A stretch of DNA of 43,623 nt, taken from the IMG/VR virus record IMGVR_UViG_3300022602_000181, positions 1 through 43,623 of that record. One strand, given 5' to 3'. The translations under genes were made by a program, and so were the position numbers. Shown here piece by piece: positions 26,201 to 43,623 of this stretch (position 1 is the first letter of the stretch; each line of letters opens with the position of its first letter). Source of the DNA: a virus. The notes beneath the pieces are model-generated. The model was given only the letters and a program-made list of their open reading frames with translations, searched no databases and had not been told where the DNA came from.

Positions 26201-29200
26201 ACTAGCAAAGCTACTCGCGATGCCGGATACCATATTGATGGGTTAGTTTATGATTTAGCAATCACTGGAAATTATAAATCTACAAGGTCAGTACAGTTAT
26301 ATCTATCATCACAGACTGGCTCAACAACTAATGACTTATTCCGTCTACGCAACGGCACTGGCCTTCGTAATATGACTCTAAACGGTATAACAGGAGCACT
26401 AGGACTACCAAATCAATATGGTACACGTCGCCCAACAGCTGGATCTTATACTACATTAGATGCAGGATTTGGTCCAACCGATTCGAGTGTTTGGATTTTT
26501 AATCGTTCACCGTATGTACAAAATATTACAAACTTTGGTAGCGGATGTGTTGGCTTCAAGATTGACGGCGCATTACACAATGGCGGTAATAAATCAATGG
26601 TGTGTAACGACTACACCCAAGTTCTAAGTGATGGTATCGGTGTATGGTGTACTGGTCATAGCTCGTTAACAGAATTAGTATCAGTATTCTGTTACTACGG
26701 TTATGCAGGTTACCTAGCAGAATTTGGTGGACGTATCCGTGCTACTAACGGTAACAGTTCATACGGTACATATGGTGTTATTGCTGAAGGTATTGATAGT
26801 TACGAAACCCCAGTATATGCTAGATTAAATAACCGCTATAATCCAGCATATGTAACAAACGTGTTAACTGATGCAGTTAATCAAATATATCGTATTGAAT
26901 ATGAAAATGCTGGTAGCGCATATACCAATGCTATTCCAACAATCAATGGCGCAGGTTATAATGCTGTAGCAGTTCAAGATGAATTCCGTGATTCGGCAGT
27001 ATTTGAAACACGCTTAGTTGATTTAAATAATGGTCAGGGTGTTGGCGGAAGTAACTACTTAACAGCAAGTAATACCGCACAACCAGCTCTTCCTGGAGCT
27101 CCGACGGTTGGTTATATTACCATTGCCAACTCAGATACACAGCTAAGTTCAGCATACGTAGGCATGCGTATTCAATTAACTGCTGGTACAGGCGTTGGAC
27201 AATATGCCAACATATTATCTTATACCAGCAGTTCAAAGATTGCGGTAATTTATCGTCCAAAATTTACACCGTTAACAATTACTGTTAGTTCATCATCATT
27301 GTTTACTGTAGCAAGTACATCAACAATGTATGTTGGACAACCTGTCGTTCTTGGAGCGGCAATCGGAGTAGGTGGTGGCACAATAGTTCCGGCTGCTACA
27401 GTTTATTATGTAAGCTCAACTAGTTTCAGTAGTACACAATTTGCTATTTCTGATACAGCCGCACATGCTACAGCTGGAACAAATAACGTTACACTAGGTG
27501 TAACTAGTGCAACGCCAGCAGTTATGACAGGATGTACGATTGTTGGAACAACACTAACTGTTGGTACATTATCATCTGGTACAATTTATGTTGGTATGCT
27601 ATTAACTGGCGGCGCTATTGCTGCCAACACATATATTGTATCTGGAAGCGGTATAACTTGGACAGTAAGTGTAAGTCAGAACTTAGCAAGTACTTCATTA
27701 ACTGGTACAATCAGTGTACCGGTGTACGAAGCAGGTTGGGATCATGCTATCGCAGGAGCAACTACACAAAGTGCTACAGACGCAACAACATCTTATATCA
27801 TTGAACCAGCAATCGCATACACTAGTCCAGGGTTTAGTTCAACGGGTTATACAAACCTAAGTACTGCAACTACATGGAAAGGTTTGGCCTATGGTCAAGG
27901 TACATTTATTGCCACATCAAGCGCAACTGGTGTTGCTACAACTAACTATAGTACCAACGGTTCAACTTGGACTGCTGGCGGAAACTTACCAACTGATGCT
28001 AGCTCATCATGGGGAAGTGTTGTATATGGTGGTGGCCAGGGTGCTACAGCTACAGCAGTAGTCGGCGGCCTAAGTGGATCTGGCGCAGTATTGACAGCTG
28101 TATTAGGTTCTGGCATTACTGCTGGTCAGATTGTAAGTATCACAGTAGTCAATGGTGGATATAATTATAGCACACCTCCGACTATTGTTATTACAGATAG
28201 TACAGGTACAGGAGCGACAGCAACTTGTGAAATTTTAAACGGCTCAATTACTGTAGTTAATATGTCAATTACTGGTAGCTTATATGTTTCTCCAACGGTT
28301 ACGGTAGTAACAAGCCAATTAAGCAGTATCACTGCAAATACTTGGGGCTATGGATATCAATCAGCTCCAACTGTTACAATTGCCGCTCCTTTTACAACTA
28401 ACACAAGTGGGTGGACAAGTAGTGGTACTGCAACTAGCGGAAATTATTACTACTATGTTGATAGTACAGTTAACCCAAGTATGACCAACTACTACCTAGC
28501 AACTAGTGGTGGCACATTTGGAACGACCGGACCAATGTTTGTATCGACTATATCTCCAAGTACTACTACAACAAAAGCAAGCACTGGTACAAACGGAACA
28601 GTATCATTAACATACGTTGGTACGCTCGCTACTGCTATAGGTAATACAAATACTAATAGCGCAGGCTATGGTGTGACTAGTTACTCATTAATTCAACCTG
28701 GTTTTGGTTATACATCAAATCCAAGCATTACGATTGCAGATCCTAATGCAGCATTTGTAGCAATTTCAACTGCTACTAACAGTGCAGCATATAGTAAAAA
28801 TCAAGGCGCTTCATGGTCAGCTACTAGCGGAAATACTGGACAAACTACATTAACGTCAATCGCATATGGGCCAGTAGGCACGGGCGGTACATATGTTGCC
28901 GTAGGGGGCAGTGGTTCAGCAGCCGCAGTATCATTGGTAGGCAATCCAGCGTCAGTAGCATGGACAAACCAATCAAGTAATATCACTGCCAACAGTTCAG
29001 GTTATAAAGCTATTGCCTACGGTAATGGTACATTTGTAGCAATTGGCGGAACAGTAAGTTCATACTGTACAAGTAATCCAGCTGTGTGGACTAGCGCAGG
29101 TTCATTGGCTAGCAAAACTTGGGTAGGTCTTGCCTACGGTAATGGAAGATTTGTTGCCCTAGCAAGCGATGGTACTGTACAGTATAACTTCATGACATGG

Positions 29201-31215: not shown

Positions 31216-32433
31216 ATGGCACGATATAATAGCGCGACTCCGGTTAACGCATATAATACTAGTGGAGGAACACTCACACTTAATACCCCACTACAGGGAG
31301 CATTTACCGAGCTAACAGGAACCTCGGCGATTACAGTCAGTCTTCCTAACCCAGCTCTATATACCGGTACTAGTCAGGTATTTTATAATGCTTCTACACA
31401 AACAGCAACACTAAGTACAGTCGCTAACGGCGGATCAATTGCTGGGCCTGGTTTAACCACAGGAACATCACAGTCTTTAACAGCAAATGCTACAGCAACT
31501 TTATTCTCAGATGGAAATAATTGGGTACAAGTTCAACTCGGTGGACCTGTAATTGCTACTACATTAAGCGCAAGTTCAACTGTTTCATTGAGTCCATCGG
31601 GAGCAAGTGTTTCATTGAATCCATCGGCAGCAAACGTTACGATTAGTCCAACTAGTGGCGGTACTGTTACAATAAGCCCAAACGGTACATTATCATGTGC
31701 TCCGGGCGGAGCAATAACATTAACTTCTGGCAGCGCCGGTTCTATTACTAATATGAGTATCGGTAGTAGTAATCCGTTGTCGGGCGCATTTACAACATTG
31801 TCTAGCAGTAGTACAACATCATTTACACTTGGTACTGATGCTAGCAGTTATAGCAACGGTGGTACACTAACTGTAACAGGCGGCGTTGGTATTAGCGGTA
31901 AAGTTTTTACTAACGGTAACATTAGCAGTTCGGGTATATTAGCATTATCGGCATCTTCAGGAACACATACAATTAGTTCAACTACTAACTCGGGCGGAAC
32001 AGGCTCAGGAGCATTAGTTATCAGTGGCGGATTAGGTGTTGCTAGCACAATTTATTGTTCAACATTTTTTGAAACATCGAGTATTAAACTTAAAGAAAAT
32101 ATTAAACCTATTACAAATGCGCTTCAGAGTGTGTTAAAATTAAAAGGTGTTACATATGATCGTAAAGATGGCACATCGATAAATGAATCAGGATTAATTG
32201 CGGAACATGTTTATAAAGTATTACCAAGCGTAGTCGGTTTAGATGAAAAAGGTAAACCAAACGCTATTCAATATTCAAAACTATCTGCTTATTTGATTGA
32301 GTGCATTAAAGATTTACAGTCAGAAATTGATGAATTAAAAGGTGCTAAAAAATCTAATGTACCAAAAGTCAAAGTATCAAGTATTGAAAAACCAAGTACT
32401 AAAACAACAATCGTAAAGAAGGGTAAAAAATAA
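31216..32433 (+). CDS. Tail fibre with C-terminal S74 intramolecular chaperone domain
   Basis: 405 residues. The N-terminal 280 residues are repetitive Ser/Thr/Gly beta-fibre (STVSLSPSGASVSLNPSAAN; SNPLSGAFTTLSSSS; GGVGISGKVFTNGN). From about residue 284 comes a Peptidase S74 chaperone domain: FETSSIKLKENIKPITNAL, then GVTYDRKDG, GLIAEHVYKVLPSVV, IQYSKLSAYLIECIKDLQSEIDEL. S74 domains trimerise the fibre and then cut themselves off by a Ser/Lys pair. Ser288 and Lys293 have the S-x4-K spacing expected. After the terminal helix there is a 30-residue Lys-rich tail (KKSNVPKVKVSS, ending KKGKK), which is unusual. The stop overlaps the next ATG by one base (TAATG, 32431-32435). Confidence 0.88.
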   Translation: MARYNSATPVNAYNTSGGTLTLNTPLQGAFTELTGTSAITVSLPNPALYTGTSQVFYNASTQTATLSTVANGGSIAGPGLTTGTSQSLTANATATLFSDGNNWVQVQLGGPVIATTLSASSTVSLSPSGASVSLNPSAANVTISPTSGGTVTISPNGTLSCAPGGAITLTSGSAGSITNMSIGSSNPLSGAFTTLSSSSTTSFTLGTDASSYSNGGTLTVTGGVGISGKVFTNGNISSSGILALSASSGTHTISSTTNSGGTGSGALVISGGLGVASTIYCSTFFETSSIKLKENIKPITNALQSVLKLKGVTYDRKDGTSINESGLIAEHVYKVLPSVVGLDEKGKPNAIQYSKLSAYLIECIKDLQSEIDELKGAKKSNVPKVKVSSIEKPSTKTTIVKKGKK

Positions 32434-33095
32434 TGGCAACATTACAAGCGACAACAATTAATGGTACACTTACTGTTAACAGCGGAACGCTTAGTGGTAA
32501 CGGTGCTAGCCTCAGCAGTATACCAGGGACAGCGTTTCAATCTGGCGCAATTACATACGACAAAATTGCAAATACTACACTGGGGGCGACAAAATTTGGA
32601 TATGCAGGAGCAGTACTACAGACATTTTTAATTAGATACGACCCAAGACCGGGTTGGAGTACTCCTACAGGTGTAGGTACAGAAGTCACATCAATGAGAT
32701 TAACTATCACTCCGCTCTATGCAAATAGTCTTATTATTTGCGAATGGAGACTGCACGGAGAAGCGGCCAGCCATGACTGTGGATTCCGCGTATTGAAAAA
32801 TGGATCTTTACAAGGCGGTAGCTACGCAGGTTATAACACTGATAGTGGTAATAACAATCATAGTTATCTTAATTCTGAATGGTATGACTCAGATGATAAC
32901 TCAACTCCACAAAGTCCAAGTTTTTTATATTATGATTATCCTGGATCAACAGCAACAGTATACTATTCACCGGCTACTGGTAGTAATGACGGTAATACTA
33001 GAACATATTATCAGAATCGTCCTTGCGGATCAAGTGGGCAAAACAACCACGAAAACGGCGTAAGTTGGGGCCGAATCACAGAAATTAAGCAATAA
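32433..33095 (+). CDS. Fibre-tip-like protein, tandem copy 1
   Basis: 220 residues. A short fibre-like N-terminus (TINGTLTVNSGTLSGNGASL) leads into a beta-sandwich domain with GAVLQTFLIRYD, LTITPLYANSLIICEW, HDCGFRVLKNGS, YYDYPGSTATVYY and the C-terminal NHENGVSWGRITEIKQ. Its plan (an ITP-x-S/N-SLI block, then R-x-NG, then a C-terminal G-x-S-x-L/I-T-x-x-E) resembles the head or tip domain found in many phage fibre proteins that bind host surfaces. Conserved His, Trp and Tyr residues could line a ligand site. The gene is coupled to the S74 fibre gene upstream. It is the first of three paralogues; the last 50 coding bases are identical to those of copy 3. Confidence 0.68.
   Translation: MATLQATTINGTLTVNSGTLSGNGASLSSIPGTAFQSGAITYDKIANTTLGATKFGYAGAVLQTFLIRYDPRPGWSTPTGVGTEVTSMRLTITPLYANSLIICEWRLHGEAASHDCGFRVLKNGSLQGGSYAGYNTDSGNNNHSYLNSEWYDSDDNSTPQSPSFLYYDYPGSTATVYYSPATGSNDGNTRTYYQNRPCGSSGQNNHENGVSWGRITEIKQ
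33039..33088 (+). repeat. 50-bp exact repeat at 3' ends of tip genes 1 and 3
   Basis: Bases 33039-33088 (end of copy 1) are identical to 34419-34468 (end of copy 3), although the rest of the genes differ and copy 2 differs here. This indicates recent recombination or gene conversion. Confidence 0.85.
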
Positions 33096-33137
33096 ATATG
33101 ACTAAGGAAATTATTTAATATGGCAAGTTTACAAGGA
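33090..33137 (+). repeat. 48-bp exact repeat at the gene junctions 1/2 and 2/3
   Basis: Bases 33090-33137 equal 33786-33833. The block contains the end of one gene, the stop-overlapping TAAATA element, the ribosome site and the first codons of the next gene (MASLQG). It duplicated with the gene and has stayed identical while the coding bodies diverged. Confidence 0.85.
33092..33099 (+). promoter_or_regulatory. Late-promoter-like element ATAAATAT over a stop codon
   Basis: TAAATA at 33093-33098 uses the TAA stop of copy 1 as its first bases and lies 27 nt before the next ATG. An identical copy occurs at 33788-33795. Confidence 0.45.
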
Positions 33138-33791
33138 TCAACAATATCGGGAACACTAAGTGCTACTACATTCAGTGCTAGCAGTATTGCTATTACTAAT
33201 TTAAGTTCAAGTAATATAAATGGGTCAAGTATTGGTAATTCCCAATTAAATGCCAATGCTATTACAAATAATGTGATTGCGTATGCAGGTGCAGTACTAC
33301 AAACAAAAGTTATACGGTATGACACGATTAATAGTTATAATGGACCTACTGATAACACCTACGGTGGAACGGCATTGACTGATTTACGTTTGACTATCAC
33401 ACCAATCTACGCAAATAGTCTCATAGTATGTGAGTGGTGGATACATGGCGAAGCCAACAATCATGATAGCGGATGGACCGTAACTACTAATGGTGCTTCA
33501 AAAGCAACCGGCACATACGCACAGTATAATACAGATGTGGGCAATAATAGCCACAGTTACTTGCTAGGTGATACTTTCTATGACCAGGATACTGGATCAA
33601 CTCCTACTAATTCACTGTTAACGTATTATGACGTTCCAGGATCAACAGCCACTAGATACTATGACCCCAGATTTGGTAGTAATGACGGTGGATCACGCAC
33701 ATATTATATCAATCGTACTGTAGGGTCAAATGGGCAAACTAACTATGAAAACGGCGTCAGCTTTGGCCGCATAACAGAAATCAAACAATAA
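33120..33791 (+). CDS. Fibre-tip-like protein, tandem copy 2
   Basis: 223 residues. The N-terminus MASLQGSTISGTLSATTFSA is followed by the same domain plan as copy 1: GAVLQTKVIRYD, LTITPIYANSLIVCEWWIHG, HDSGWTVTTNG, YYDVPGSTATRYY, then NYENGVSFGRITEIKQ. It is the most divergent of the three in its final 20 residues. Loop residues between the conserved blocks differ strongly, as expected for a receptor-contacting surface. It has its own late-like element over the previous stop codon and an AAGGAAA ribosome site. The adhesin role is inferred from fold plan and location; no ligand can be named. Confidence 0.68.
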   Translation: MASLQGSTISGTLSATTFSASSIAITNLSSSNINGSSIGNSQLNANAITNNVIAYAGAVLQTKVIRYDTINSYNGPTDNTYGGTALTDLRLTITPIYANSLIVCEWWIHGEANNHDSGWTVTTNGASKATGTYAQYNTDVGNNSHSYLLGDTFYDQDTGSTPTNSLLTYYDVPGSTATRYYDPRFGSNDGGSRTYYINRTVGSNGQTNYENGVSFGRITEIKQ

Positions 33792-33815: not shown

Positions 33816-34475
33816 ATGGCAAGTTTACAAGGAACAACAGTCACAGGAAACGTAGCGGCAACATCGTTATCGGGATCTGGTGCAAGTTTATCAAACATTC
33901 CTAATTCATCAATTAATGCATCTTCTATAACAAATGCATCAATTGCGGACGGTGCCATCGGTCGTGCAAATATTAATTTTGCCGGAGCAGTAGTACAAAC
34001 ACAAACGGTTCGATATGATGCTCGTCCACAAATTAGTATGCCAACAAGCTATCCTGGAACAATTTTAAGCAATTTACGATTAACTATTACTCCACAATTT
34101 TCAAATAGTTTAATCATTTGCGAGTGGTTCATCCACGGAGAACCAAACAATCACGATGCTGGCATGCGAGTAGCTAAAAATAGTAGCTATCAAGGCGCTC
34201 CTTACGCTTCGTATAATTCCGCTGTTGGCACAGCAAATCATAGTTTTATTTGTTCTAGCTGGTATGACCCAGATAACAATTCCACTCCTAAGAATCTTAA
34301 GGTGTTTTGGTATGATTATCCAGGATCAACAGCAACAGTATATTACGAACCTGCATTTGCATCGGAAGATGGCGGAACTAGAACATTTAATGTAAATCGT
34401 TGTACCGGATCAGCCGGACAAAACAACCACGAAAACGGCGTAAGTTGGGGCCGAATCACAGAAATTAAACAATAA
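33816..34475 (+). CDS. Fibre-tip-like protein, tandem copy 3
   Basis: 219 residues. It begins MASLQGTTVTGNVAATSLSG and carries the domain blocks GAVVQTQTVRYDARP, LTITPQFSNSLIICEWFIHG, HDAGMRVAKNSS, WYDYPGSTATVYY, and the same C-terminus as copy 1. The start of the gene is identical in DNA to that of copy 2 and its end is identical to that of copy 1, so the gene looks like a mosaic of the tandem family. It is followed after 20 nt by the XkdW-like gene. Likely a fibre tip or host-range determinant; binding specificity is unknown. Confidence 0.68.
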   Translation: MASLQGTTVTGNVAATSLSGSGASLSNIPNSSINASSITNASIADGAIGRANINFAGAVVQTQTVRYDARPQISMPTSYPGTILSNLRLTITPQFSNSLIICEWFIHGEPNNHDAGMRVAKNSSYQGAPYASYNSAVGTANHSFICSSWYDPDNNSTPKNLKVFWYDYPGSTATVYYEPAFASEDGGTRTFNVNRCTGSAGQNNHENGVSWGRITEIKQ

Positions 34476-34495: not shown

Positions 34496-35041
34496 ATGGC
34501 ATTTGAATTTGATAGTAATCGTCCAGATTTGATGAGCGCATTAGCGTTAATAGTACCTAATGGAAGATTTGTTCTAAAAATGAAACCAGGCGAATCTGAG
34601 GCAGTATTTGAAGATGTTGAATGGCAACATCTAGATCAATTTCCGGACTGGATTCCCCCCACTAAAGAATATGTGATGGGGTATCTAGCAAGTATTCAAG
34701 ACATTTGGGATCGTAAAGAAAAACATCGCCAATTAAGGAAAGCAGTATATCCGTCAGTTGGTGATCAATTAGATGCGTTGTGGAAAGGCGGAAAAGATGC
34801 CGAGGACATGAAGAAAGTAATAGATGCTGTTAAACAACAGTTCCCTGCAAATAATCCGTCTCACCCATGGCGCAGTAGTGGAAATGGTACTGTTAATCAT
34901 TACTACAGAAAAGGCTCTTCAGTTAAACAACATCCGGAAATTCCGTTGCCAGATACAACACATCCACTAGTTGATCCTAATGCTCCAGTACCATATCAAG
35001 GGGCGCCAGATCAATTATCGTTACATCCGCTTTTATCGTAA
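34496..35041 (+). CDS. XkdW-like small tail protein
   Basis: 181 residues. The middle contains R-x-AVYPSVGDQLDALWKGG, matching the 'YP-x-x-x-DQLDAL(Y/W)' signature of XkdW-like phage proteins that usually sit at the end of tail-fibre gene blocks. Upstream, DWIPPTKEYVMGYLASIQDI is helical. The C-terminal third is Pro/His-rich and probably disordered (HPEIPLPDTTHPLVDPNAPV). CGGAGA at 34480-34485 gives the ribosome site. Family function is unsettled (tail-fibre assembly or baseplate). Its last 31 bases overlap the convergent carbamoyltransferase gene on the other strand, and no terminator separates them. Confidence 0.7.
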   Translation: MAFEFDSNRPDLMSALALIVPNGRFVLKMKPGESEAVFEDVEWQHLDQFPDWIPPTKEYVMGYLASIQDIWDRKEKHRQLRKAVYPSVGDQLDALWKGGKDAEDMKKVIDAVKQQFPANNPSHPWRSSGNGTVNHYYRKGSSVKQHPEIPLPDTTHPLVDPNAPVPYQGAPDQLSLHPLLS

Positions 35042-36522
35042 ATTTTATTACCAACACATAGTAAATCTAAGTCGCTAGAATTAAAAACACCCATTGCATG
35101 TTCACTAGTTGATGCAATGGGTTTTTTATTGATATTTAAACTAGTATTCAGTAATACAGGCGTACCGGTCTTTTCATAAAACTTCAAAAGTAGTTTATAA
35201 AATATAGGATTATTATTTTTAGAAACTGTTTGTATTCTACTAGATCCGTCAATATGAGTAATTGATGTTAAACTTGAATCTTTAACAGGAACACTGTAGA
35301 GCATGAAAGGACTAGGGTAGTCACAGTCAAAATATACTGAAGTATATTCTTCTAATACACTGCAACCAAACGGTCTATAATCCTCTCTAAATTTAACACG
35401 AGAATTTATAATATCTTTTCCGTCTTTAATGTCAGGTCGCATTAGTATTGACCTATTGCCTAACGCCCTAGGACCAACTTCACCTTGGCCTTGAAACCAT
35501 CCTACAATTTTACCATTAGCTAGTGCATCTACAATTTTATCTATAGTTTCATTATCAGGTTCATTAGGCGATTCTTCTGATTGCCAATACGGAAAATTAG
35601 TAGTATCAAATGCTGGTTGATTATACCGACGTCTAAGGAATTCAACACACCCTAAGGATAATCCATCATCAAGATTATGTGGTGGAATATATAAATTTTT
35701 GAATACCTCTTTTAACCGGCTATTAATACAAATGTTTTGTGCAACTCCGCCTGAAAACGTAATAACATCGTTAGGTTTTGCGAATTTTAAAAAATATTCT
35801 ACAAACTTATCTTCAATACATTTATGAACTGATGCTATCCAATCAACGCTTCCGGGTTTAAGTTTTATAAATTGTTTATTTTTGGTATTCATATATTTTA
35901 TCCAATTAAACAATTCAAATAACTTCGATGCTTCTAAGATTGATAATGAAGAAAATTCCTTAACAAACTCATTATTAATAGTGCCATAAGATTTAAGTGC
36001 CATAACTTTACCACTTACATCAAGCGGGTGTCCTTCAATTCCTGCAAATTTACCCCAGTTAGCTAATAATACTCCTACACCAGTAACTATAGCACTTGAT
36101 AGTACTTCATCTTTTTTAAAGATAGTGTTAGTTTTAAAAAAATCGCCAACTCCATCAAATACAAAAGCAACATCGACTTTATCAAGATCGATAATCGGCC
36201 AGCAACTCAACGAATGAGCATAGTGATGATCAACGATAAAGGTTGGACATGTAATATTAGGTAAAAATTTAGGAGCTTCTTGAACTAATACATCTTCTTT
36301 TTTAAAATCAAGTTTTTCATAATCTACAGATATTGCGACAGCATCGAGGGTAGAAAAATCAATATTCCAATCTTTTATATCTTCAATATATGATAAAAAA
36401 TCATTATAACCATGATGTTTTATCTGATGTATTCTTTCAGATTTTCGATACAACACCTTTGAGCCGTCGGTGTATGTAATATTTGAATCGTGATCGCAAA
36501 GTCGTAATCCGAGAAATTTCAT
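35011..36522 (-). CDS. O-carbamoyltransferase, NodU/CmcH/TobZ family
   Basis: 503 residues. Enzymes of this family make carbamoyl-adenylate from carbamoyl phosphate and ATP, then transfer the carbamoyl group to a hydroxyl of a sugar or small molecule. The Kae1-like first domain has the metal-binding His99 and His103 (VDHHYAHS), Asp123 (FDGVGD) and LDDGLSLG near 284-291. The second domain has GPRALGNRSIL (350-360), FREDYRPFG (378-386), HIDGSSRIQTV (423-433) and TGTPVLLNTSLN (452-463), all hallmark blocks. Nothing looks inactivating. It is the last gene of the minus-strand operon, starting 2 nt after its upstream neighbour's stop, and it overlaps the convergent XkdW-like gene by 31 bp. The acceptor is unknown; hydroxyls made by the neighbouring oxygenases are attractive candidates. 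Confidence 0.92.
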   Translation of the reverse strand: MKFLGLRLCDHDSNITYTDGSKVLYRKSERIHQIKHHGYNDFLSYIEDIKDWNIDFSTLDAVAISVDYEKLDFKKEDVLVQEAPKFLPNITCPTFIVDHHYAHSLSCWPIIDLDKVDVAFVFDGVGDFFKTNTIFKKDEVLSSAIVTGVGVLLANWGKFAGIEGHPLDVSGKVMALKSYGTINNEFVKEFSSLSILEASKLFELFNWIKYMNTKNKQFIKLKPGSVDWIASVHKCIEDKFVEYFLKFAKPNDVITFSGGVAQNICINSRLKEVFKNLYIPPHNLDDGLSLGCVEFLRRRYNQPAFDTTNFPYWQSEESPNEPDNETIDKIVDALANGKIVGWFQGQGEVGPRALGNRSILMRPDIKDGKDIINSRVKFREDYRPFGCSVLEEYTSVYFDCDYPSPFMLYSVPVKDSSLTSITHIDGSSRIQTVSKNNNPIFYKLLLKFYEKTGTPVLLNTSLNINKKPIASTSEHAMGVFNSSDLDLLCVGNKIYDKSGCNDN

Positions 36523-36524
36523 AA

Positions 36525-37145
36525 TTAAATTAGTCTTAATCTTTGTATAGGATAGTATCTTGTACTCAAATGTTCAATAAAAAACACAAGCGTTAGTCTG
36601 CTATTGCTATCGTTTTCACCAAAATAGTTATTAGCAGAATGATATTCTTTGGCATCAAATGCTATTAATCTATTAAACTGATTTTTAACCACTATTGATT
36701 CTACAAATTGTTCATTATTTTCTAATCTTGATTCTTCAGGCTGCAAGTATTTCTGGGGATACATTTTTTCACTTGCGCCGGTAAATTTTGGTTTGTAGAT
36801 AGTAGTACCACTATTTGGATCGGGATCGGGATTTAAATAAACAATTCCTGAAATAATTTCATTATCTCGATGTATCCACCCTGTTTGAAATGATTTGTCA
36901 ATTATTTGAAACTGTACTCTTGCAGACCACCCTTGTACATCACTTGCTCGATAAAATATAGCATTAACTCTGTCAATTACATGCTGGAATAACGGTCGGT
37001 TAATTTCATTTAATTCACGACTGCGTTTTCCAGGATATGTATGATTTGGATCAGTAAAATATTCTTGTTCTAGAGCAAATTTTCTGACCTCATACGGATC
37101 ATCAAAAAAATTATCTAGTACAGTTGTTGGTATAGTGTAATTCAC
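36525..37145 (-). CDS. 2-oxoglutarate/Fe(II)-dependent oxygenase-like protein (family A)
   Basis: 206 residues with a GTG start, 2 nt after the preceding stop. The jelly-roll motifs are WIHRDNEI (His92, Asp94), EYHSANNY (His169) and NSRLTLVFF (Arg183), the iron triad HxD...H plus the Arg expected to hold 2-oxoglutarate. The N-terminal part (VLDNFFDDPYEVRKFALEQE) and FPGKRSRE-like text resemble small uncharacterised phage oxygenases of the DUF6445 type. The gene at the right window edge (43201 onward) is a relative: both share a Y-LNP/TPNA-x-PDSGT segment and KNQFNR. Substrate unknown; peptidyl or small-molecule hydroxylation is possible. Confidence 0.78.
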   Translation of the reverse strand: MNYTIPTTVLDNFFDDPYEVRKFALEQEYFTDPNHTYPGKRSRELNEINRPLFQHVIDRVNAIFYRASDVQGWSARVQFQIIDKSFQTGWIHRDNEIISGIVYLNPDPDPNSGTTIYKPKFTGASEKMYPQKYLQPEESRLENNEQFVESIVVKNQFNRLIAFDAKEYHSANNYFGENDSNSRLTLVFFIEHLSTRYYPIQRLRLI

Positions 37146-37147
37146 AA

Positions 37148-37732
37148 TTATGCAAAATTAAATGCTAAACTAATACGGTCCTCATCGGAAGTGTGCGCCG
37201 GAACACAATGTCTTAGATGACTTCTAAAAACAATAACTTTACCGGCTTCGGCAGTGTATCTAGCACGTTGGTCTGTCATATTACCGTGCATAGATATTGG
37301 TAGAGGATTCATTTCTGGAGGCAAAGGTGTTTCAAAAATTAGTTGACTACTGTCTTTTGGTGCCTGAACATAATAGACTGCTGAAAAGTGAAATCCACCG
37401 TGATAGTGAAATTCTTGAAAATCAGATTGCTTATAAATATTAAGCCATCCTTCCTTGCAAGCGAACGAATTTCTACTAATATCTACACCTAATCTGCTAG
37501 CATATACATGTACCATTCTACTAACATTAGCAGTAATATCCTTAAAAGCAGGATCAGCAACAATATCAAACGTTCCGCATGTATTATACGGTCTGCCTAA
37601 CCAGTTTTTACCACCAGTAGGTATAGTACTTTGTATTTCACGAATGCGTGGAATTAACGCAGAATTTATTTTTTCGTAGTCAAAAATCTGCTGAGAAAGA
37701 ATGGCAGTAGGAAAACATAAATCAAAACCCAT
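37148..37732 (-). CDS. 2OG-Fe(II) oxygenase, TIGR02466-like (family B)
   Basis: 194 residues, ATG start 2 nt after the upstream stop. The N-terminus (CFPTAILSQQIFD) is typical of this family ('FPTPv'). The core has FHYHGGFHFSAVYYV (His109, His111), a glycine/phenylalanine-rich LIFETPLPPEMNP loop, then VIVFRSHLRHCVPAHTS (His172 or His175) and DRISLAFNF (Arg186). The first iron motif reads H-x-H rather than the usual H-x-D, as in the two other family-B genes in this cluster. The family is annotated as putative 2OG oxygenase, and direct activity data are scarce. Its role must be judged from the cluster of halogenase, carbamoyltransferase and other oxygenases. Confidence 0.8.
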   Translation of the reverse strand: MGFDLCFPTAILSQQIFDYEKINSALIPRIREIQSTIPTGGKNWLGRPYNTCGTFDIVADPAFKDITANVSRMVHVYASRLGVDISRNSFACKEGWLNIYKQSDFQEFHYHGGFHFSAVYYVQAPKDSSQLIFETPLPPEMNPLPISMHGNMTDQRARYTAEAGKVIVFRSHLRHCVPAHTSDEDRISLAFNFA

Positions 37733-37734
37733 TA

Positions 37735-38430
37735 TTAATATTCCCGATCAACTGTTTTAAAGATTAACTCAGTAAGTTCTTTTTCTGCTCCTAATGCATA
37801 TTTAGGAACGGCGTTAAAGGCAATAGAATAACGATTTGTTTTGCTTTCATTCCCTTGAACTTTATGTGCTAACCAAGAAGGAAACAAACAAACCATATTA
37901 TTTTCAACTTTTAAATTTACTTCATTAAAAGAAAATTCATTGTTAACATTTGGATTTGTTAGTGGCGTCATCACCCATGTGTGTGATGATTGATTTTTAA
38001 TGAACGTTAGTCCTTCGGTCTCTGGAGGATTATTAAACCAAAAAACTCCAGAAATAATTGAGTTACCATGGCTATGCATAATATGGCGTTGCTCCGGACG
38101 TTTAATCGATAACCAACTTTGTGTCATAGCATATTCGCCAGCAAGACCTAAGCACTGATTTGCATATTCATTGATATATGTTGTTAGCAATTCTTTTAAT
38201 TTAACAAATCCTGGTTGATCTAAGATATAAGTATTTTCACTTCGTTCTCCGTAAAGTGTAGCACCTTCATACATAGAAGCTAGCGGAGTTTCACTGATGG
38301 TACTTAAAAATGGAATATCACCGTCCTGAATAATATTTTCTCTTGTATATACTGGAGTAGGAAAAATACCATGAATTTCATACGAGGCATCTTGACTAGC
38401 CTTTACTACAAAATCTTCTTGTTTGCTCAT
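37735..38430 (-). CDS. 2OG-Fe(II) oxygenase, TIGR02466-like (family B)
   Basis: 231 residues. GIFPTPVYTREN at 21-32 is the family N-terminal motif. The active-site blocks are RHIMHSHGNSIISGVFWFNN (His119, His121) and LFPSWLAHKVQGNES (His189) with NRYSIAFN (Arg200). The linker TEGLTFIKNQSS and the hydrophobic FPSW strand are normal for the fold. The start codon overlaps the preceding stop as ATGA (38427-38430), so it is translationally coupled to the unrecognised gene upstream and, through it, to the halogenase. The substrate cannot be read from the sequence. Confidence 0.82.
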   Translation of the reverse strand: MSKQEDFVVKASQDASYEIHGIFPTPVYTRENIIQDGDIPFLSTISETPLASMYEGATLYGERSENTYILDQPGFVKLKELLTTYINEYANQCLGLAGEYAMTQSWLSIKRPEQRHIMHSHGNSIISGVFWFNNPPETEGLTFIKNQSSHTWVMTPLTNPNVNNEFSFNEVNLKVENNMVCLFPSWLAHKVQGNESKTNRYSIAFNAVPKYALGAEKELTELIFKTVDREY

Positions 38431-39131
38431 TTTTTATCCTTTAATATTTTTCTAGTAAGTTCATAACTATTGTGAAAGCTATGATGATATGTTTTTAATT
38501 TATTATGTTCAAATTCGTTAACAACATGTATAGCAATCGTTACATCTTTTTCAGACATTGGAGTTAGGTAAACTAGTGGTTGCCCAGCTTCGATGTTAAT
38601 TTCTCGTAAAATTTGTTGTTTTGGACTTACTAAATTAATGTGTGTTGAGTGTTGATATTTAAATTCTAAAGAGCCTGCCGGTATGTGAAATTGGCAGGGA
38701 TCAGCATTGTGCCAGCTAGCTTGATTCACTACAAAACTAACTCCTGTTTTTTCTTTTAACATCCACGGACTTAATAACTTGTAATGTTGATAATTTGGAA
38801 ATGCCCCAGCTAATTGCTCCTCTCTGTGCTGTTGCCCTCCAGTTATCGAGTTAGGAGCAATATGACTAAAACCGTGTTGGGGGTCTTGAAATAATCTGTA
38901 TTGACTCCACGCAGGAATACACATGCTATTTCTAAATAAATCTTTAAATCCCGGGCACCGTTTAATTGTACTCATACCGATAGGAAATGCCTCGACTGGA
39001 ACTTCTTTAGGAATTGACTTCCACCACTTAGGTAGCATATCAACTAACGGTGATATTGGAAATAACATCGAAATATTCTCGTTAGTTATAAAACAATCAA
39101 CGGTAATTTTTGTTTTTTTAAAAAATATCAT
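38427..39131 (-). CDS. Unrecognised protein coupled to the halogenase gene
   Basis: 234 residues, no family recognised. The N-terminal part (KITVDCFITNENISMLFPI, then MLPKWWKSIPKEVP) and the middle (CIPAWSQYRLFQDP, SFVVNQASWHNADPCQFHIP) are rich in Trp, His and Pro. The C-terminal half (GSLEFKYQHSTHINLVSP, then EAGQPLVYLTPMSEKDVTIA) looks like a beta-sandwich or cupin-like barrel. I see no complete HxD...H...R set, so I do not call it another oxygenase. It is joined to the halogenase (ATGA overlap at 39128-39131) and to an oxygenase (ATGA at 38427-38430). That makes a partner, carrier or substrate-binding role plausible but unproven. Confidence 0.6.
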   Translation of the reverse strand: MIFFKKTKITVDCFITNENISMLFPISPLVDMLPKWWKSIPKEVPVEAFPIGMSTIKRCPGFKDLFRNSMCIPAWSQYRLFQDPQHGFSHIAPNSITGGQQHREEQLAGAFPNYQHYKLLSPWMLKEKTGVSFVVNQASWHNADPCQFHIPAGSLEFKYQHSTHINLVSPKQQILREINIEAGQPLVYLTPMSEKDVTIAIHVVNEFEHNKLKTYHHSFHNSYELTRKILKDKK

Positions 39132-40579
39132 ATTGAATTCTTTAAATTGTTAATAGCTTCTCTATGGCTGATCCAAGTTCCGCCTACATCTATTGGAGGC
39201 ATATGAGGTTCAAGATTATTTTTAACCATATCCGGAAGATTTTCAAGTGAGGCTTTTGCAATTTCTGGATTCAATAATCCTAGTCCATGCATAACAATAA
39301 TCCAATTTGCACCTTGGAACAATACCCGTTTATTATCAAAATCCAAATCTGATGGAAATTTGTGTTGATAGACCTCCATTATTTCCTCGAGACTTGCGGT
39401 CATTGGCAGATCTACGATAGATTTCCAAAAATCAGTGTCGTTGCGTTTTACACGATAGTGTAACGCAACGAAATCAAATAAATTTTCTAAGATTTCGTTG
39501 TTATGGCTATTGAATTTTTTCTCGGCATACGTGTTTCCAGGTACATACATAGGTAAAAGTTCGGCTAGTATAAACGCTTGCTGTATGCTATGGCCAATAC
39601 TACTTGCCTCTAACGGCTCAACAAAACTCCCACTCAGACCGATTGCGGCACAATTTTTAAGCCACGATGTTTCTAAGTGGCCAGCATCAAATTTAATTTG
39701 TTTACCTATCTCTACTTTGTAGCCATATAATTCTTCAACTTCTTGTTTAGCTTTTTCAAAATCACAGAACTGATCGTTGAATACATATCCGTTACCAAAT
39801 CTTTCTTGCGTTGGAATACGCCATAACCATCCTGAATTCATAGATCTCGATAATGTCCATGCTGGGATTTCTTCTTCACGGGCAGTTGGAAATGCAATAG
39901 CACTGTTCATAGGTAAATATTTCTGATAGCTTTTCCACTTAACTCCCATAGTTTTATGTAAAATAATTCTAGCAAAGCCAGTACTATCAACATAAAAATC
40001 GTAAGTAAACTCTCTGCCGTCTTTAGATTTTAATCTTTCAATTGATCCGTCCTCAGCCAATGGAATTTCATTTAATTCTGCATCAATCAACCCGATACCT
40101 GCTTCTTGACATTTTTTATGCAAATATTCATTTAACTTAAAAGTATTAAAATGAAATTGATTAATATTGTAGTTGTTTTCTTTAAGTTGACTTTTGACTA
40201 CATACGGCTTAGTCAAAAACAACGGATTCATTCTTTTTGATATAAGATTAGCATACACAAATTTAATGTGATTTGCCGAACTATTCATCTCAGCATTTAC
40301 TGATTGAATATAACTTTGCCCATCACCATTCCAATTGGCAAAATTTATACCGTACTTAAATGTAGCATCAGTTTCTTCAACTAATTCTTTTAGCGGAATT
40401 TTACACTGGCGCATGAATTTCGACCAATGTTCTGTTGATCCTTCACCTACCCCTATAATACCTACTGCTTTTGATTCTATTAAATCAATAGTGAGATTAG
40501 GGTAGTAATTTTTTAATATTAATGCGGTAACCAATCCGGCTGTCCCGCCACCTACAATCGCTACGGTTTTTGTTATCAT
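39128..40579 (-). CDS. Flavin-dependent tryptophan-halogenase-like enzyme
   Basis: 483 residues from the ATG at 40579, which overlaps the upstream stop as ATGA. A start 12 codons further up is possible but would lie inside the upstream gene. Flavin halogenases use FADH2, O2 and halide to make hypohalous acid that reacts through a Lys. Seen here: the FAD motif VGGGTAG (9-15), IGVGEGST (42-49), the catalytic-type Lys75 in FKYGINFANW, the family motif W-x-W-x-I-P as GWLWRIP (250-256) followed by GNGYVF, and SFVEPLEASS (318-327) with Glu321/Glu324 matching the region of PrnA Glu346. All key parts are present. A flavin reductase is not in the window. Whether free Trp, a peptide Trp or another aromatic is the substrate is unknown; the family also includes members without proven halogenation. 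Confidence 0.9.
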   Translation of the reverse strand: MITKTVAIVGGGTAGLVTALILKNYYPNLTIDLIESKAVGIIGVGEGSTEHWSKFMRQCKIPLKELVEETDATFKYGINFANWNGDGQSYIQSVNAEMNSSANHIKFVYANLISKRMNPLFLTKPYVVKSQLKENNYNINQFHFNTFKLNEYLHKKCQEAGIGLIDAELNEIPLAEDGSIERLKSKDGREFTYDFYVDSTGFARIILHKTMGVKWKSYQKYLPMNSAIAFPTAREEEIPAWTLSRSMNSGWLWRIPTQERFGNGYVFNDQFCDFEKAKQEVEELYGYKVEIGKQIKFDAGHLETSWLKNCAAIGLSGSFVEPLEASSIGHSIQQAFILAELLPMYVPGNTYAEKKFNSHNNEILENLFDFVALHYRVKRNDTDFWKSIVDLPMTASLEEIMEVYQHKFPSDLDFDNKRVLFQGANWIIVMHGLGLLNPEIAKASLENLPDMVKNNLEPHMPPIDVGGTWISHREAINNLKNSI

Positions 40580-41232
40580 ATTTTTCTTAGTTGTCCCATA
40601 AATCCCTCTGCCCATATGTCTGGAAGTGGCGGCGCACCGTCTGGTAATGTTTCGTCGATAACCTTAGGCCAAAATATAAAATTAATAACTGATCGCTGTT
40701 CAGTGGTTGGATTTGAACTTGCATGATATTGTGTACTTTTGAATAATATAGCAGAGCCTGCTTTAGGTCTAAACCTATTAACTATTGTCACCGGGCGAGG
40801 GTCTTCACCATTATAAAACTTATCAAATAATATAGTATCTCCGTCTGCATCATTTACATAATAAATTAATGTCATTGCATCGCCCCTACCGTGATCAGTA
40901 TGCGGTCTATTATAAGAATTAGGGTTTATTTTCTGTCGTGGAAACATTAAATTTACTTTTATTCGTTGAATAGTAATTTTAGTTTCTAAAAACTCAGAGA
41001 TCTTATATATGAGAGGAGTAACAAGCGACATTTCGTTATCTTCAGGACGGATAATATGTACTAGCTGTGATGAATCTTCGGTGTTCTCATCTTCGAACCA
41101 TCCAAAATCATTATTTGGGCCTTTTGAAGTATACTTTTTATACTGCCACAAAAAGTTATTTTCATCAAAAAATGCAGTTTTCAAGTCTTCTTGAATCCAG
41201 GGCGAAACAAAGTTTTCAAAATAGTGTATCAT
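40576..41232 (-). CDS. 2OG-Fe(II) oxygenase, prolyl-4-hydroxylase-like (family C)
   Basis: 218 residues. The N-terminus MIHYFENFVSPWIQEDLK is the usual start of small P4H-like oxygenases. The metal and cosubstrate residues are His111 and Asp113 (YNRPHTDHG), His170 (QYHASSNPT) and Arg180 (QRSVINFIF), with TLIYYVNDADGDTILFDK between them. It is a close paralogue of the genes at 41282 and 42569, with these residues at identical positions. It is the first gene downstream of the only sizeable gap in the minus-strand operon, where a late-like element lies. Its stop overlaps the halogenase start (ATGA). Peptidyl or free amino-acid hydroxylation is the family norm; the substrate here is unknown. Confidence 0.87.
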   Translation of the reverse strand: MIHYFENFVSPWIQEDLKTAFFDENNFLWQYKKYTSKGPNNDFGWFEDENTEDSSQLVHIIRPEDNEMSLVTPLIYKISEFLETKITIQRIKVNLMFPRQKINPNSYNRPHTDHGRGDAMTLIYYVNDADGDTILFDKFYNGEDPRPVTIVNRFRPKAGSAILFKSTQYHASSNPTTEQRSVINFIFWPKVIDETLPDGAPPLPDIWAEGFMGQLRKI

Positions 41233-41261
41233 ACAAGTAATTATCTTTAAAAAATAAAGGC

Positions 41262-41270
41262 GTATTTAAT
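41262..41270 (-). promoter_or_regulatory. Late-promoter-like element on the minus strand (ATTAAATAC)
   Basis: On the minus strand the 49-nt gap between two oxygenase genes holds ATTAAATAC; its TAAATA core occupies plus-strand 41263-41268. It is 31 nt upstream of the ATG at 41232 and the gap is otherwise AT-rich. This is the only long gap in the operon, and the core matches those on the plus strand. Confidence 0.5.
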
Positions 41271-41281
41271 CTTGGCTATAC

Positions 41282-41923
41282 TTACTTTTCCGGCATTAGT
41301 TTTTCTATTATATCATACCTAGGCAGAGAGCCAAATGGATTTTCTTTTTTAGATGCCACGGTAAACACAAAATTTATAACAGACCGAACACCGGTGGTGG
41401 GATTAGAACTAGCATGATATTGATTGCTATTAAACAGCACAGCAGTACCTGCTTTTGGTTTGATTTGTTGGGCTATTTTCATATCTTTAGGATACTGTCC
41501 GTTAAACACTTTATCAAATATGATAGTATCACCATCTGCATCATTAACATAATACAAAAGTGTCTGCACTTCGGGTCTATCACTGTCTACGTGCGGACGA
41601 TTATATGAGAATGGATTAATTTTTCCAGGCAATGGAAAAGATAAATTTGCTTTTATACGTTCTACAAATACTTGCGAATTTACCAACTCGGAAATTTTAT
41701 AAATTATTGGATGAATAGAAACTGGCAACTTTTCGTTTTCTGAAAACATGTGTACGAAGTTTGAACTATCTTCGGTGTTCTGGTCTACTATCCATGAATG
41801 AGGATAAAATGTATTTGATGCAGTATTTTGTAAAAAAGTCCAAGACATTTTAGAACCAAGAAGCATCTCTTTTAGCTCGTCTCTATAGATATCTGTTACA
41901 AAGTTTTCTATAATTTTAATCAT
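41282..41923 (-). CDS. 2OG-Fe(II) oxygenase, prolyl-4-hydroxylase-like (family C)
   Basis: 213 residues, MIKIIENFVTDIYRDELKEM at the start. The active site residues are His111/Asp113 (NRPHVDSD), His170 (QYHASSNPTT) and Arg180 (VRSVINFVF). The central strand pair YYVNDADGDTIIFDK is nearly identical to that of the neighbouring paralogue, while the N-terminal 60 residues differ more (NTFYPHSWIVDQNTEDSSNF), suggesting changed substrate choice. The ATG overlaps the upstream stop as ATGA (41920-41923). The gene ends just before the internal promoter gap, so it may belong to the upstream half of the operon in expression terms. Confidence 0.87.
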   Translation of the reverse strand: MIKIIENFVTDIYRDELKEMLLGSKMSWTFLQNTASNTFYPHSWIVDQNTEDSSNFVHMFSENEKLPVSIHPIIYKISELVNSQVFVERIKANLSFPLPGKINPFSYNRPHVDSDRPEVQTLLYYVNDADGDTIIFDKVFNGQYPKDMKIAQQIKPKAGTAVLFNSNQYHASSNPTTGVRSVINFVFTVASKKENPFGSLPRYDIIEKLMPEK

Positions 41924-42576
41924 TTAATTGTTGCATCAAATACTATGGCTAGTCGGATGCCCTCCCCAGTAAAAGGGTATGCTTCGTGTTTGACCCACCC
42001 GGGAAATATTACTAAATTTCCAGCAGAAGGCATGAAATGTTTGGTGGTACTATAACCGTACCAAGTTGATTCCACTGCTGGATTATGAAATACTAATGCT
42101 CCTTGCGGTTCAACAAGATCTGGAGGAACTTCTACGTAATATATTCCAGTAAATGTTGATCGATGATGTAAGTGTACCGATTGAAAATTGCCTTCCCGGT
42201 ATAAAACACTCCAACTACGTATTGATAAAGGAGTATATGGTAGCTCGGGAGTATCAGTACGACGGTTTCCTGAAATCGATGACTTAAGCAACTGTCTGTA
42301 TGAACTTGCATATTTTTGTATTTCAGGAAATATAATCGTGTCGCGTAAATGGTTAATACAGGGTACATCTTGATCCAAAATACCAGTGTTAGGCCATTTA
42401 GGTTGGTATCCTCCAATAGTCGCTCTATTGATATCATTTTCAAGACCGCTAACTTCATGTTCTAATACAAAATTCAGTATTTCTTTATTAAGATCATCTG
42501 CCTTAAATAAATTGGTATACACTAATTGAGGAAAATAATTTTCAAATTTTCCTTCTTGGCTGTTAGTATTATACAT
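41920..42576 (-). CDS. 2OG-Fe(II) oxygenase, TIGR02466-like (family B)
   Basis: 218 residues. The motifs are NYFPQLVYTNLFKADDL near the start, SVHLHHRSTFTGIYYVEVP (His135, His137), an NPAVESTWYGYST loop, then VIFPGWVKHEAYPFTGEG (His197) and IRLAIVFD (Arg208). This is the same H-x-H variant as the other two family-B genes but in divergent sequence, so it is not a recent duplicate. The ATG overlaps the end of the upstream gene by 8 nt (ATGTATAA). It sits between two family-C oxygenases, which suggests that B and C enzymes work on linked substrates; this is inference only. Confidence 0.8.
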   Translation of the reverse strand: MYNTNSQEGKFENYFPQLVYTNLFKADDLNKEILNFVLEHEVSGLENDINRATIGGYQPKWPNTGILDQDVPCINHLRDTIIFPEIQKYASSYRQLLKSSISGNRRTDTPELPYTPLSIRSWSVLYREGNFQSVHLHHRSTFTGIYYVEVPPDLVEPQGALVFHNPAVESTWYGYSTTKHFMPSAGNLVIFPGWVKHEAYPFTGEGIRLAIVFDATIK

Positions 42577-43201
42577 CTAAATCCTTAATTATAGTAGGCA
42601 CTGCTGGAAATGGATTATTAACAATAGTACCCTCCTTCCAAAATATAACATTAATTACTGCTCTTTTATTCTGCGTGGGAGTAGAACTGGCATGATACCT
42701 ATTACTATCAAACAGTAGAGCAGAACCTGCTTTGGGAGTTATACTGTTAATGATCGTTAACTTTCCGGGATCATTTCCTGTAAATTTTTTATCAAAAAGT
42801 ACAGTGTCGCCATCACTGTCATTTACGTAATAAATTAACGTCATTGCCTTATCTGATCGATTATCGACATGCGGGCGATTGTAGCTGTTGGGCATTTGTT
42901 TTTTACGAGGCAACATTAAATTAATTTTAATACGATTTAGATTAATAGGATGGTTTATTAAATCAGCAATAGCATATAAAAGCGGCTCATAAGAAACTAT
43001 TTCATCACTTGGTTTTCTACTTAATCGACTAAAAAATTCAGAATCTTCAGTGTTCTCATCTTCGAACCAAACAAAGTCTTTGTTATCGCCACTTGTTGTA
43101 GTTGGCAGATAACTCCATAAAAAATTATGATCAAAAATAGCCTTTTCTAATGCTTGTTTATAAAAAGGGCTTAGATTAAAATTTTCAATATATTTAATCA
43201 T
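42569..43201 (-). CDS. 2OG-Fe(II) oxygenase, prolyl-4-hydroxylase-like (family C)
   Basis: 210 residues, MIKYIENFNLSPFYKQALEK at the start. The catalytic set is His111/Asp113 (NRPHVDNRS), His170 (RYHASSTPT) and Arg180 (KRAVINVIF), with TLIYYVNDSDGDTVLFDK between. The segment DFVWFEDENTEDS is shared almost exactly with the 40576 gene (DFGWFEDENTEDS) but not with the 41282 gene, so the 40576 and 42569 products are the closer pair. The start overlaps the upstream stop by one base (TAATG on the minus strand). Function beyond oxygenase chemistry cannot be assigned. Confidence 0.87.
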   Translation of the reverse strand: MIKYIENFNLSPFYKQALEKAIFDHNFLWSYLPTTTSGDNKDFVWFEDENTEDSEFFSRLSRKPSDEIVSYEPLLYAIADLINHPINLNRIKINLMLPRKKQMPNSYNRPHVDNRSDKAMTLIYYVNDSDGDTVLFDKKFTGNDPGKLTIINSITPKAGSALLFDSNRYHASSTPTQNKRAVINVIFWKEGTIVNNPFPAVPTIIKDLDV

Positions 43202-43623
43202 TAGGTATCAAAAAAGAAAACTTGAATTAATCGACCATTTTGATAGTTATTACCGAATCCTGGAATCATACTGCGATGATATAGCCGACCGCGATACAAT
43301 ATCATTCGATTAAATTGATTTTTTATTTCTAAATTACAACGCCACTTACTAAAATCTCGTACTTCGTCTGTGTGATTAAAATCAGTAGCAGGATTATCAG
43401 GATCCCATTCGCTCACACCAGTTTTGATATGTGTGAATAGTCCAGTGCCGGAATCGGGATTAGCATTTGGTGTTAAGTATACGACCGCCGCCCACCCATC
43501 CATGTCGTGGTGTACCCAACTTTGCTCATCGTGTGTTATAAGTTGAAAACAAGTATTCATTTTTTCTTGATTGCCTAATTTTCCAGTAAACGTATCCCAT
43601 CTGGTTATAGTCATACCTAATAT
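43201..43623 (-). CDS. 2OG-Fe(II) oxygenase-like protein (family A), cut by window end
   Basis: The frame stays open to the window edge (three codons upstream of the ATG at 43614). About 50 or more N-terminal residues found in its relative at 36525 are absent, so the gene very probably begins outside the window. Visible motifs, numbered from that ATG, are SWVHHDMDG (His35, Asp37), YLTPNANPDSGTGLF, KNQFNRMILYRGRLYHRSM (His113) and NGRLIQVFFF (Arg128). This is the full HxD...H...R set of a 2OG oxygenase. It is the most upstream visible member of the minus-strand operon and shows that the cluster continues to the right of this window. Confidence 0.78.
   Translation of the reverse strand: MLGMTITRWDTFTGKLGNQEKMNTCFQLITHDEQSWVHHDMDGWAAVVYLTPNANPDSGTGLFTHIKTGVSEWDPDNPATDFNHTDEVRDFSKWRCNLEIKNQFNRMILYRGRLYHRSMIPGFGNNYQNGRLIQVFFFDT

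Follow-up and report, generated by a model that had tools for sequence, protein, structure and literature searches.

A minus-strand enzyme island beside fibre genes

The DNA analysed here, IMG/VR record IMGVR_UViG_3300022602_000181, is 43,623 bases long; this whole stretch, which we call the window, is the entire record and a piece of a larger phage genome. Eleven minus-strand open reading frames (ORFs) fill positions 35011-43623, with intergenic gaps of no more than 49 bp or short overlaps between them (Table 1). The original prediction, made from the sequence alone, had described eleven adjacent minus-strand genes here, eight of them for 2-oxoglutarate (2OG)-Fe(II) oxygenases of three families, together with a flavin halogenase with intact motifs and an O-carbamoyltransferase. 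All of the ORFs are present, and Pfam bears out the assignments, finding PF13640 three times, PF13759 three times, DUF6445 twice, and a flavin halogenase (PF04820) and a carbamoyltransferase (PF16861 and PF02543) once each. The remaining protein, g5, had no match in the Pfam search of the island proteins. One DUF6445 gene, g11, is truncated because the contig ends at position 43,623, and the three PF13640 genes (g7, g8 and g10) are local duplicates with pairwise identities of 44-51%.

The plus strand of the window encodes a prohead protease, a gp23 capsid protein, giant tail/fibre proteins, a Peptidase_S74 fibre and three tandem paralogs of 220 amino acids (aa). The capsid protein is 67-72% identical to those of the jumbo myoviruses Phosso, Vibrio 2.275.O, GAP32 and CBB. 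Judged from this protein, the source is a jumbo phage of the GAP32/Phosso kind; the same identity rules out a cyanophage origin for the window.

Table 1. Island genes (g, cbmT) and adjoining virion genes (w), in window coordinates.
Gene	Product	Position	Strand	Basis
w14	Presumed fibre/adhesin, 3529 aa, upstream of the tips	20216..30805	+	Function inferred from position
w16	Fibre protein with Peptidase_S74 intramolecular chaperone	31216..32433	+	PF13884 E 3e-11; tail PHROGs
w17	Putative fibre-tip paralog 1	32433..33095	+	S-WAM2 homologs annotated tail fiber protein
w18	Putative fibre-tip paralog 2	33120..33791	+	Tip-family homology
w19	Putative fibre-tip paralog 3	33816..34475	+	Tip-family homology
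w20	Small QLDxLWK protein, between tip and enzyme genes in most related cassettes	34496..35041	+	Motif comparison
cbmT	NodU/TobZ-type O-carbamoyltransferase, 503 aa	35011..36522	-	PF16861 E 2e-57; PF02543 E 4e-17; phrog_1601 E 3e-153; TobZ/GdmN-type PDB relatives
g2	DUF6445 oxygenase, predicted prolyl 4-hydroxylase (P4H)-type fold, 206 aa, GTG start	36525..37145	-	PF20043; H92xD94...H169...R183; model
g3	PF13759 2OG-Fe(II) oxygenase, HxH...H...R	37148..37732	-	Pfam; motif
g4	PF13759 2OG-Fe(II) oxygenase, HxH...H...R	37735..38430	-	Pfam; motif; relatives 3BVC/2RG4
g5	Predicted dUTPase-fold protein (phrog_7084), conserved halogenase neighbour	38427..39131	-	Model
g6	Flavin-dependent halogenase, VirX1/BrvH-type; possible longer start at 40615	39128..40594	-	PF04820 E 1e-96
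g7	PF13640 2OG-Fe(II) oxygenase, HTD...H...R	40576..41232	-	Pfam; motif
g8	PF13640 2OG-Fe(II) oxygenase, HVD...H...R	41282..41923	-	Pfam; motif
g9	PF13759 2OG-Fe(II) oxygenase, HxH...H...R	41920..42576	-	Pfam; motif
g10	PF13640 2OG-Fe(II) oxygenase, HVD...H...R	42569..43201	-	Pfam; motif
g11	DUF6445 oxygenase, last 140 aa only	43201..43623	-	PF20043 E 4e-9; full-length homologs at the same end in L009, L010 and L020

Active-site motifs and predicted folds

The enzyme genes retain intact active-site motifs. In the halogenase, GxGxxG, K80, WxWxIP and E329 are all intact, and the lid motif for free tryptophan found in enzymes of the PrnA/RebH type (YYHG...YS) is absent from g6 and from nearly all of its phage relatives. 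The motif list was taken from PMC8269204, in which the lid-less group includes VirX1 and MibH. The carbamoyltransferase carries both the N- and the C-terminal Pfam domains of TobZ/NodU O-carbamoyltransferases. All three PF13640 proteins score above the Pfam cut-off and have the HxD...H metal triad and the 2OG-binding arginine. Members of PF13759 match their family strongly and have HxH...H...R in place of HxD/E...H, so that the carboxylate of the metal triad is missing; the related PDB entries 3BVC and 2RG4 likewise align an HxH.

DUF6445 is formally a family of unknown function. Its HxD...H...R set is invariant across 12 homologs, and the best matches to an AlphaFold2 model (predicted local distance difference test score, pLDDT, 81.5) are protein prolyl-hydroxylases with the double-stranded beta-helix fold: the Pseudomonas putida P4H that acts on EF-Tu (VIA Z 14.8), PHD2 (14.5), OGFOD1 (14.1) and a viral collagen P4H (14.0). 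The fold and the HxD...H...R set are common to the model and to P. putida P4H, PHD2 and PBCV-1 vCPH, at 11-16% identity. DUF6445 therefore models as a P4H-type oxygenase; a common fold alone is no proof of a protein substrate. Existing labels say otherwise: PHROG 274 and many RefSeq cyanophage records place "DNA endonuclease V" (denV) on PF13640 2OG oxygenases (window positions 40576-43201), and the phrog_1644 label "minor coat protein" sits on DUF6445. A literal reading of either is ruled out by Pfam and the DUF6445 model, which give oxygenases. Both labels look wrong and obscure such islands.

The island is conserved in order and position

The same gene order, which the original prediction had proposed to seek in other viral genomes, was found at the same place in three independent contigs from three metagenomes (L009, L010 and L020). 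Most genes common to these and the window are 54-74% identical, with values of 68-74% for cbmT, 69-74% for the halogenase and 64-65% for g5. The order retained is DUF6445 (one or more), PF13640, then, further on, g7, halogenase, g5, a variable gene, g4, g3, a variable gene and cbmT. Homologs of w14-w20 flank the island on one side, and a gp15 homolog flanks it on the other in L010 and L020 (the window ends before gp15). On the 104-kb contig that holds L020 (G001), every match to the three oxygenase families falls within the island. Between L009 and L010, the ratio of nonsynonymous to synonymous substitution rates (dN/dS) is 0.03-0.16 for all 11 island genes compared, similar to the neighbouring fibre genes, indicating that all 11 are under purifying selection. 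Gene composition differs at three positions among these close relatives, so the set is modular. Larger versions of the island occur on metagenomic contigs at L101, L106, L114, L117 and L007, where the halogenases number three or four and the oxygenases roughly ten; one of these contigs is 278 kb long. The GC content of the island is 0.34 versus 0.39, and a distant region of G001 is equally low; we therefore do not claim recent import.

Across the genomes of 10 cultured phages, the number of 2OG genes no more than 6 kb from a halogenase is 28 compared to 8.2 expected, a number reached in none of 10,000 random placements. Since this test assumes that the 10 phages, which are related, are independent and that positions are uniformly distributed, it demonstrates clustering and not its cause. 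Because independent contigs keep the order and 2OG genes cluster at halogenases in cultured phages, the arrangement is not due to chance.

Co-inheritance with fibre-tip genes

Relatives of w17-w19 are rare in cultured phages. They were found in only two (4 of 50,697 records), where they are annotated as tail fiber proteins; the order in S-WAM2 is fibre, three tips, a small gene, DUF6445, a 2OG gene and gp13-gp15. We then scanned viral contigs with the window tip family as query, blind to the enzymes. DUF6445, PF13759, g5 or halogenase genes lie downstream of this tip family in seven metagenomic groups (L206, L208/209, L211-213, L214, L215, L216 and L217). Another tip family, glycine-rich and unrelated to the first, lies ahead of the three-halogenase islands L101, L114 and L117 and of the islands of Syn9, S-CREM1 and P-TIM40. 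The S-CREM1 version of this protein occurs in 19 of the 50,697 phage records, representing 10 distinct phages, and a halogenase follows close downstream in 19 of 19, with a gap of 450-900 bp in each of the 10. In the loci read, this gap holds one small gene with the QLDxLWK-like motif that is common to w20.

S-RIM44 provides a natural with/without pair. Isolates with the glycine-rich tip have two halogenases and g5 there, and isolates that lack the tip have neither; Np_42_0711 is an isolate with the cassette, and Sn_08_0709 one that lacks the halogenase block. KX349294.1 (L219) and KX349295.1 (L220), compared over 96-118 kb, are 94-95% identical from just before gp13 onward (the gp13-gp17 side). 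Where they differ, one has three tips, the QLD gene, two halogenases, g5 and oxygenases, whereas the other has one unrelated tip, the QLD gene and a single PF13759 oxygenase. Tip and enzymes are swapped together in a single block, and a different tip comes with a different set of enzymes. The exchange between these two isolates also takes in the fibre C-terminus. The layout of tip paralogs, QLDxLWK gene, halogenase/g5/oxygenases and gp13-15 recurs in unrelated phages; it is present in the window and in L009, L010 and L020, with the gp15 side visible in the relatives and not in the truncated window. Most tip-linked cassettes have no carbamoyltransferase. A lone halogenase gene in S-SRM01 (L034, 8498-11079) lies between a tail fibre gene and the gene for a gp37-gp38 adhesin tip complex.

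A dUTPase-fold protein next to the halogenase

g5 belongs to phrog_7084, and DUF6065 is weakly matched by 1 of 11 relatives (E 0.0025). Its model (pLDDT 82.4) has the trimeric-dUTPase fold; the top 50 VIA matches are all dUTPases, the best with Z 10.9 over 126 residues at 3.0 A. Homologs of g5 retain the sequence GILDxxY / AGTPLxQxIP, which is similar to motifs 3-4 of dUTPases. Of the other catalytic motifs in these homologs, motif 2 (RSS) is replaced by TPWR or SPW, and motif 5 (RGxxGFG) is absent.

An alignment scan with g5 yielded 99 loci, of which 80 were kept and collapsed to 40 lineages. A halogenase directly adjoins g5 in 12 of these; within three genes there is a halogenase in 17 and a halogenase or recognised oxygenase in 27. 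Halogenase genes are enriched beside g5 (near, 19/163; far, 14/517; p 2e-5), also when the comparison is restricted to loci found via g5 (p 0.011). For 2OG genes there was no significant enrichment beside g5 (32/163 near versus 83/517 far, p 0.28), because whole loci are rich in them. phrog_7084 also gives a match in a Caulobacter control. These pairings suggest that g5 may act as a partner of the halogenase.

The halogenase family has a bacterial setting as well. Its homologs in Alpha- and Gammaproteobacteria (L118-L197) adjoin genes for TonB-dependent receptors (45 of 80 loci), Cupin_8, SapC and DUF6445; the g5 profile had no match in any of the 80. From their gene neighbourhoods, these loci appear to be a second setting in which a large outer-surface protein is accompanied by Fe(II) oxygenases. 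They differ from the window in being chromosomal, in a sugar-utilisation setting, and in having no carbamoyltransferase pattern. Our literature search found no paper on this recurring TonB receptor-halogenase-SapC-Cupin_8-DUF6445 locus.

A candidate tailoring system for receptor-binding tips

Since the enzymes swap together with the tips, the simplest model is that they act on them. We give about an even chance to the proposal that the island is a tailoring cassette whose enzymes modify the phage's own receptor-binding fibre tips. More tentatively, and somewhat short of even, such cassettes could represent a widespread phage system for post-translational modification of receptor-binding tips by hydroxylation, aromatic halogenation and O-carbamoylation, swapped with the tip and employing a repurposed dUTPase-fold protein as the halogenase partner. 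We infer the tip as substrate, and likewise the residues modified, the reaction order, the timing and the role of g5. The enzymes would be made with the late fibre block and, either ahead of assembly or in its course, would act on w17-w19 and possibly on the fibre shaft. Side chains would be hydroxylated by the P4H-type 2OG oxygenases, the VirX1-type halogenase would halogenate peptidyl tryptophan or tyrosine (indole or phenol), and the carbamoyltransferase would cap a hydroxyl group. Besides tip linkage, constant position and purifying selection, three observations favour this model: the resemblance of DUF6445 to protein prolyl-hydroxylases, the bacterial loci that pair a surface protein with Fe(II) oxygenases, and the missing free-tryptophan lid, a trait of the group with VirX1 and MibH. 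MibH halogenates tryptophan inside a peptide. g5, altered in its catalytic motifs, would assist the halogenase as an adaptor. If enzyme sets are tip-specific, exchange of tip and enzymes as a block could alter receptor specificity or tip stability.

The original prediction had favoured a coherent enzyme system over scattered auxiliary genes, and had left the substrate among virion proteins, glycans, host metabolites and outside products. Its first part is supported by an arrangement that is conserved, ordered and tip-linked; among the substrates, a virion protein, the fibre tip, has specific genomic support, and a natural product has little. It had named genes found singly and at random positions in related phages as the opposing outcome. 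The picture is mixed but mostly favourable to a system: close relatives keep the order and islands adjoin tips, and in cyanophages 2OG genes occur scattered as well as in islands. The fibre-tip link, the jumbo affiliation, the dUTPase fold of g5 and the existence of a DNA-modifying phage enzyme in the cbmT family are points that it missed.

Several observations weigh against tip modification. The region just ahead of gp13 attracts insertions in general and varies in many phages; in the window, enzymes and fibre genes are encoded on opposite strands; and some halogenases (P-SSM2, Syn1) are not beside fibre genes. In groups L203-205, L207 and L210 this tip family is not followed by any recognised enzyme gene, and ACG-2014j has the S-WAM2 layout without the enzymes. 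To our knowledge, carbamoyltransferases of the cbmT family act on small molecules, sugars or 5-hydroxymethylcytosine (5hmC), not on proteins, and we know of no modified virion peptide. In the one virion proteome found, that of S-CREM1 (PMC9964418), the search was for protein identification, and the available part of the paper makes no mention of such a modification.

The main rival, which we consider unlikely, is that in the infected cell the enzymes modify a host receptor or envelope component (a glycan or outer-membrane protein), for instance to block superinfection or release progeny, and track the tip since the receptor does. This is equally consistent with the tip linkage and swap data. 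Sugars are frequent substrates of carbamoyltransferases, S-SSM7 encodes two of these enzymes together with a halogenase and 2OG enzymes next to genes for heptose and nucleotide sugars, and bacterial halogenase relatives sit at TonB-receptor loci. However, neither the island nor any of its three close relatives contains a glycosyltransferase or sugar gene, flavin halogenases require an aromatic substrate, and the genes lie in the virion block, not in an early region.

Less likely still is a pathway that decorates a small molecule or capsule, the proposal of Iyer et al. 2021 for the S-SSM6a cluster, whose carbamoyltransferases, halogenase and 2OG enzymes form a similar set (PMC7824862). The S-SSM6a-type marker genes (HemK-like methylase, HAD phosphatase, cupin) account for 0 of the 11 island genes, and neither the window island nor the three relatives contain a scaffold-making, sugar, methylase or phosphatase gene. 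The halogenase without the free-tryptophan motif and the strict tip linkage (19/19) also speak against it. We rate as equally improbable that the genes are passengers, unrelated auxiliary genes that collect at an insertion hot spot next to the fibre and are carried along when it recombines. The variability before gp13, the single oxygenases and halogenases elsewhere and the differing composition among close relatives would be expected of such cargo; the ordered core, the g5-halogenase pairing in many lineages, purifying selection and the constant tip-halogenase linkage would not. Finally, nucleotide or DNA hypermodification, with the carbamoyltransferase making 5-carbamoyloxymethylcytosine or similar, the oxygenases hydroxylating bases and g5 binding nucleotides as a relative of dUTPases, is very improbable: a phage carbamoyltransferase of the cbmT family does modify 5hmC, co-occurring with an Asp-type thymidylate synthase (dCMP hydroxymethylase) (PMC8670742), and g5 has the dUTPase fold, but the thymidylate synthase of G001 is of the Asn (dUMP) type (both contigs being partial), neither dUTPase motif 5 nor the RSS of motif 2 is present in g5, and the island lies in the tail block, in a class of cassettes mostly without carbamoyltransferase.

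Relation to known systems

Enzyme islands of this kind are already known in T4-like phages, and one with a carbamoyltransferase and a halogenase has been read differently, as metabolite/capsule enzymes. That cluster, in the jumbo cyanophage S-SSM6a (Iyer et al. 2021, PMC7824862), likewise combines carbamoyltransferase, halogenase and 2OG oxygenases; it has the HemK-like methylase, HAD phosphatase, cupin and sugar genes, whereas the window has none and is tip-linked. VirX1 of cyanophage Syn10 (PDB 6QGM) shares enzyme family and layout with the window, and Syn9 gp42, 100% identical to the 531-aa Syn10 enzyme with VirX1 signatures, follows the fibre genes and precedes a g5 homolog and several oxygenases. 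By contrast, the window halogenase is only about 27% identical to VirX1, and the window has a carbamoyltransferase, a GAP32-like jumbo phage background and another tip family. We know of no natural substrate for VirX1. The enzyme is a trimer with a large open active site and has been treated as a biocatalyst (PMC8407142). The 2OG-Fe(II) oxygenases of T4-like cyanophages belong to the same families as those of the window, and S-CREM1 has eight annotated 2OG/JmjC genes following a halogenase. The parts of these reports available (PMC3037559, PMC9964418) explain such genes by 2OG/nitrogen signalling, DNA repair or host metabolism and do not note the fibre-tip linkage. New here is the finding of such an island outside the cyanophages, in a jumbo lineage, with neither sugar nor scaffold genes; co-inheritance with the tip, the putative dUTPase-fold partner and the assignment of DUF6445 as P4H-type are new as well.

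If tip modification is correct, VirX1 and many phage 2OG oxygenases so far called metabolic or DNA-repair enzymes would have one role, the finishing of host-range proteins, and viruses would be seen to modify their proteins in a new way. We know of no phage tail protein that phage enzymes halogenate or carbamoylate. The model points to Syn9, Syn10, S-CREM1, P-TIM40 and some S-RIM44 isolates as cassette carriers.

Two further observations concern the wider genome. The virion block of the window contains two giant proteins, of 2786 aa (11802-20162) and 3529 aa (w14), whose order is kept in relatives. G001 encodes at 97292-98152 (L024) a QueE-like 7-carboxy-7-deazaguanine synthase, assigned by eye, and 7-deazaguanine chemistry may therefore occur in this phage group.

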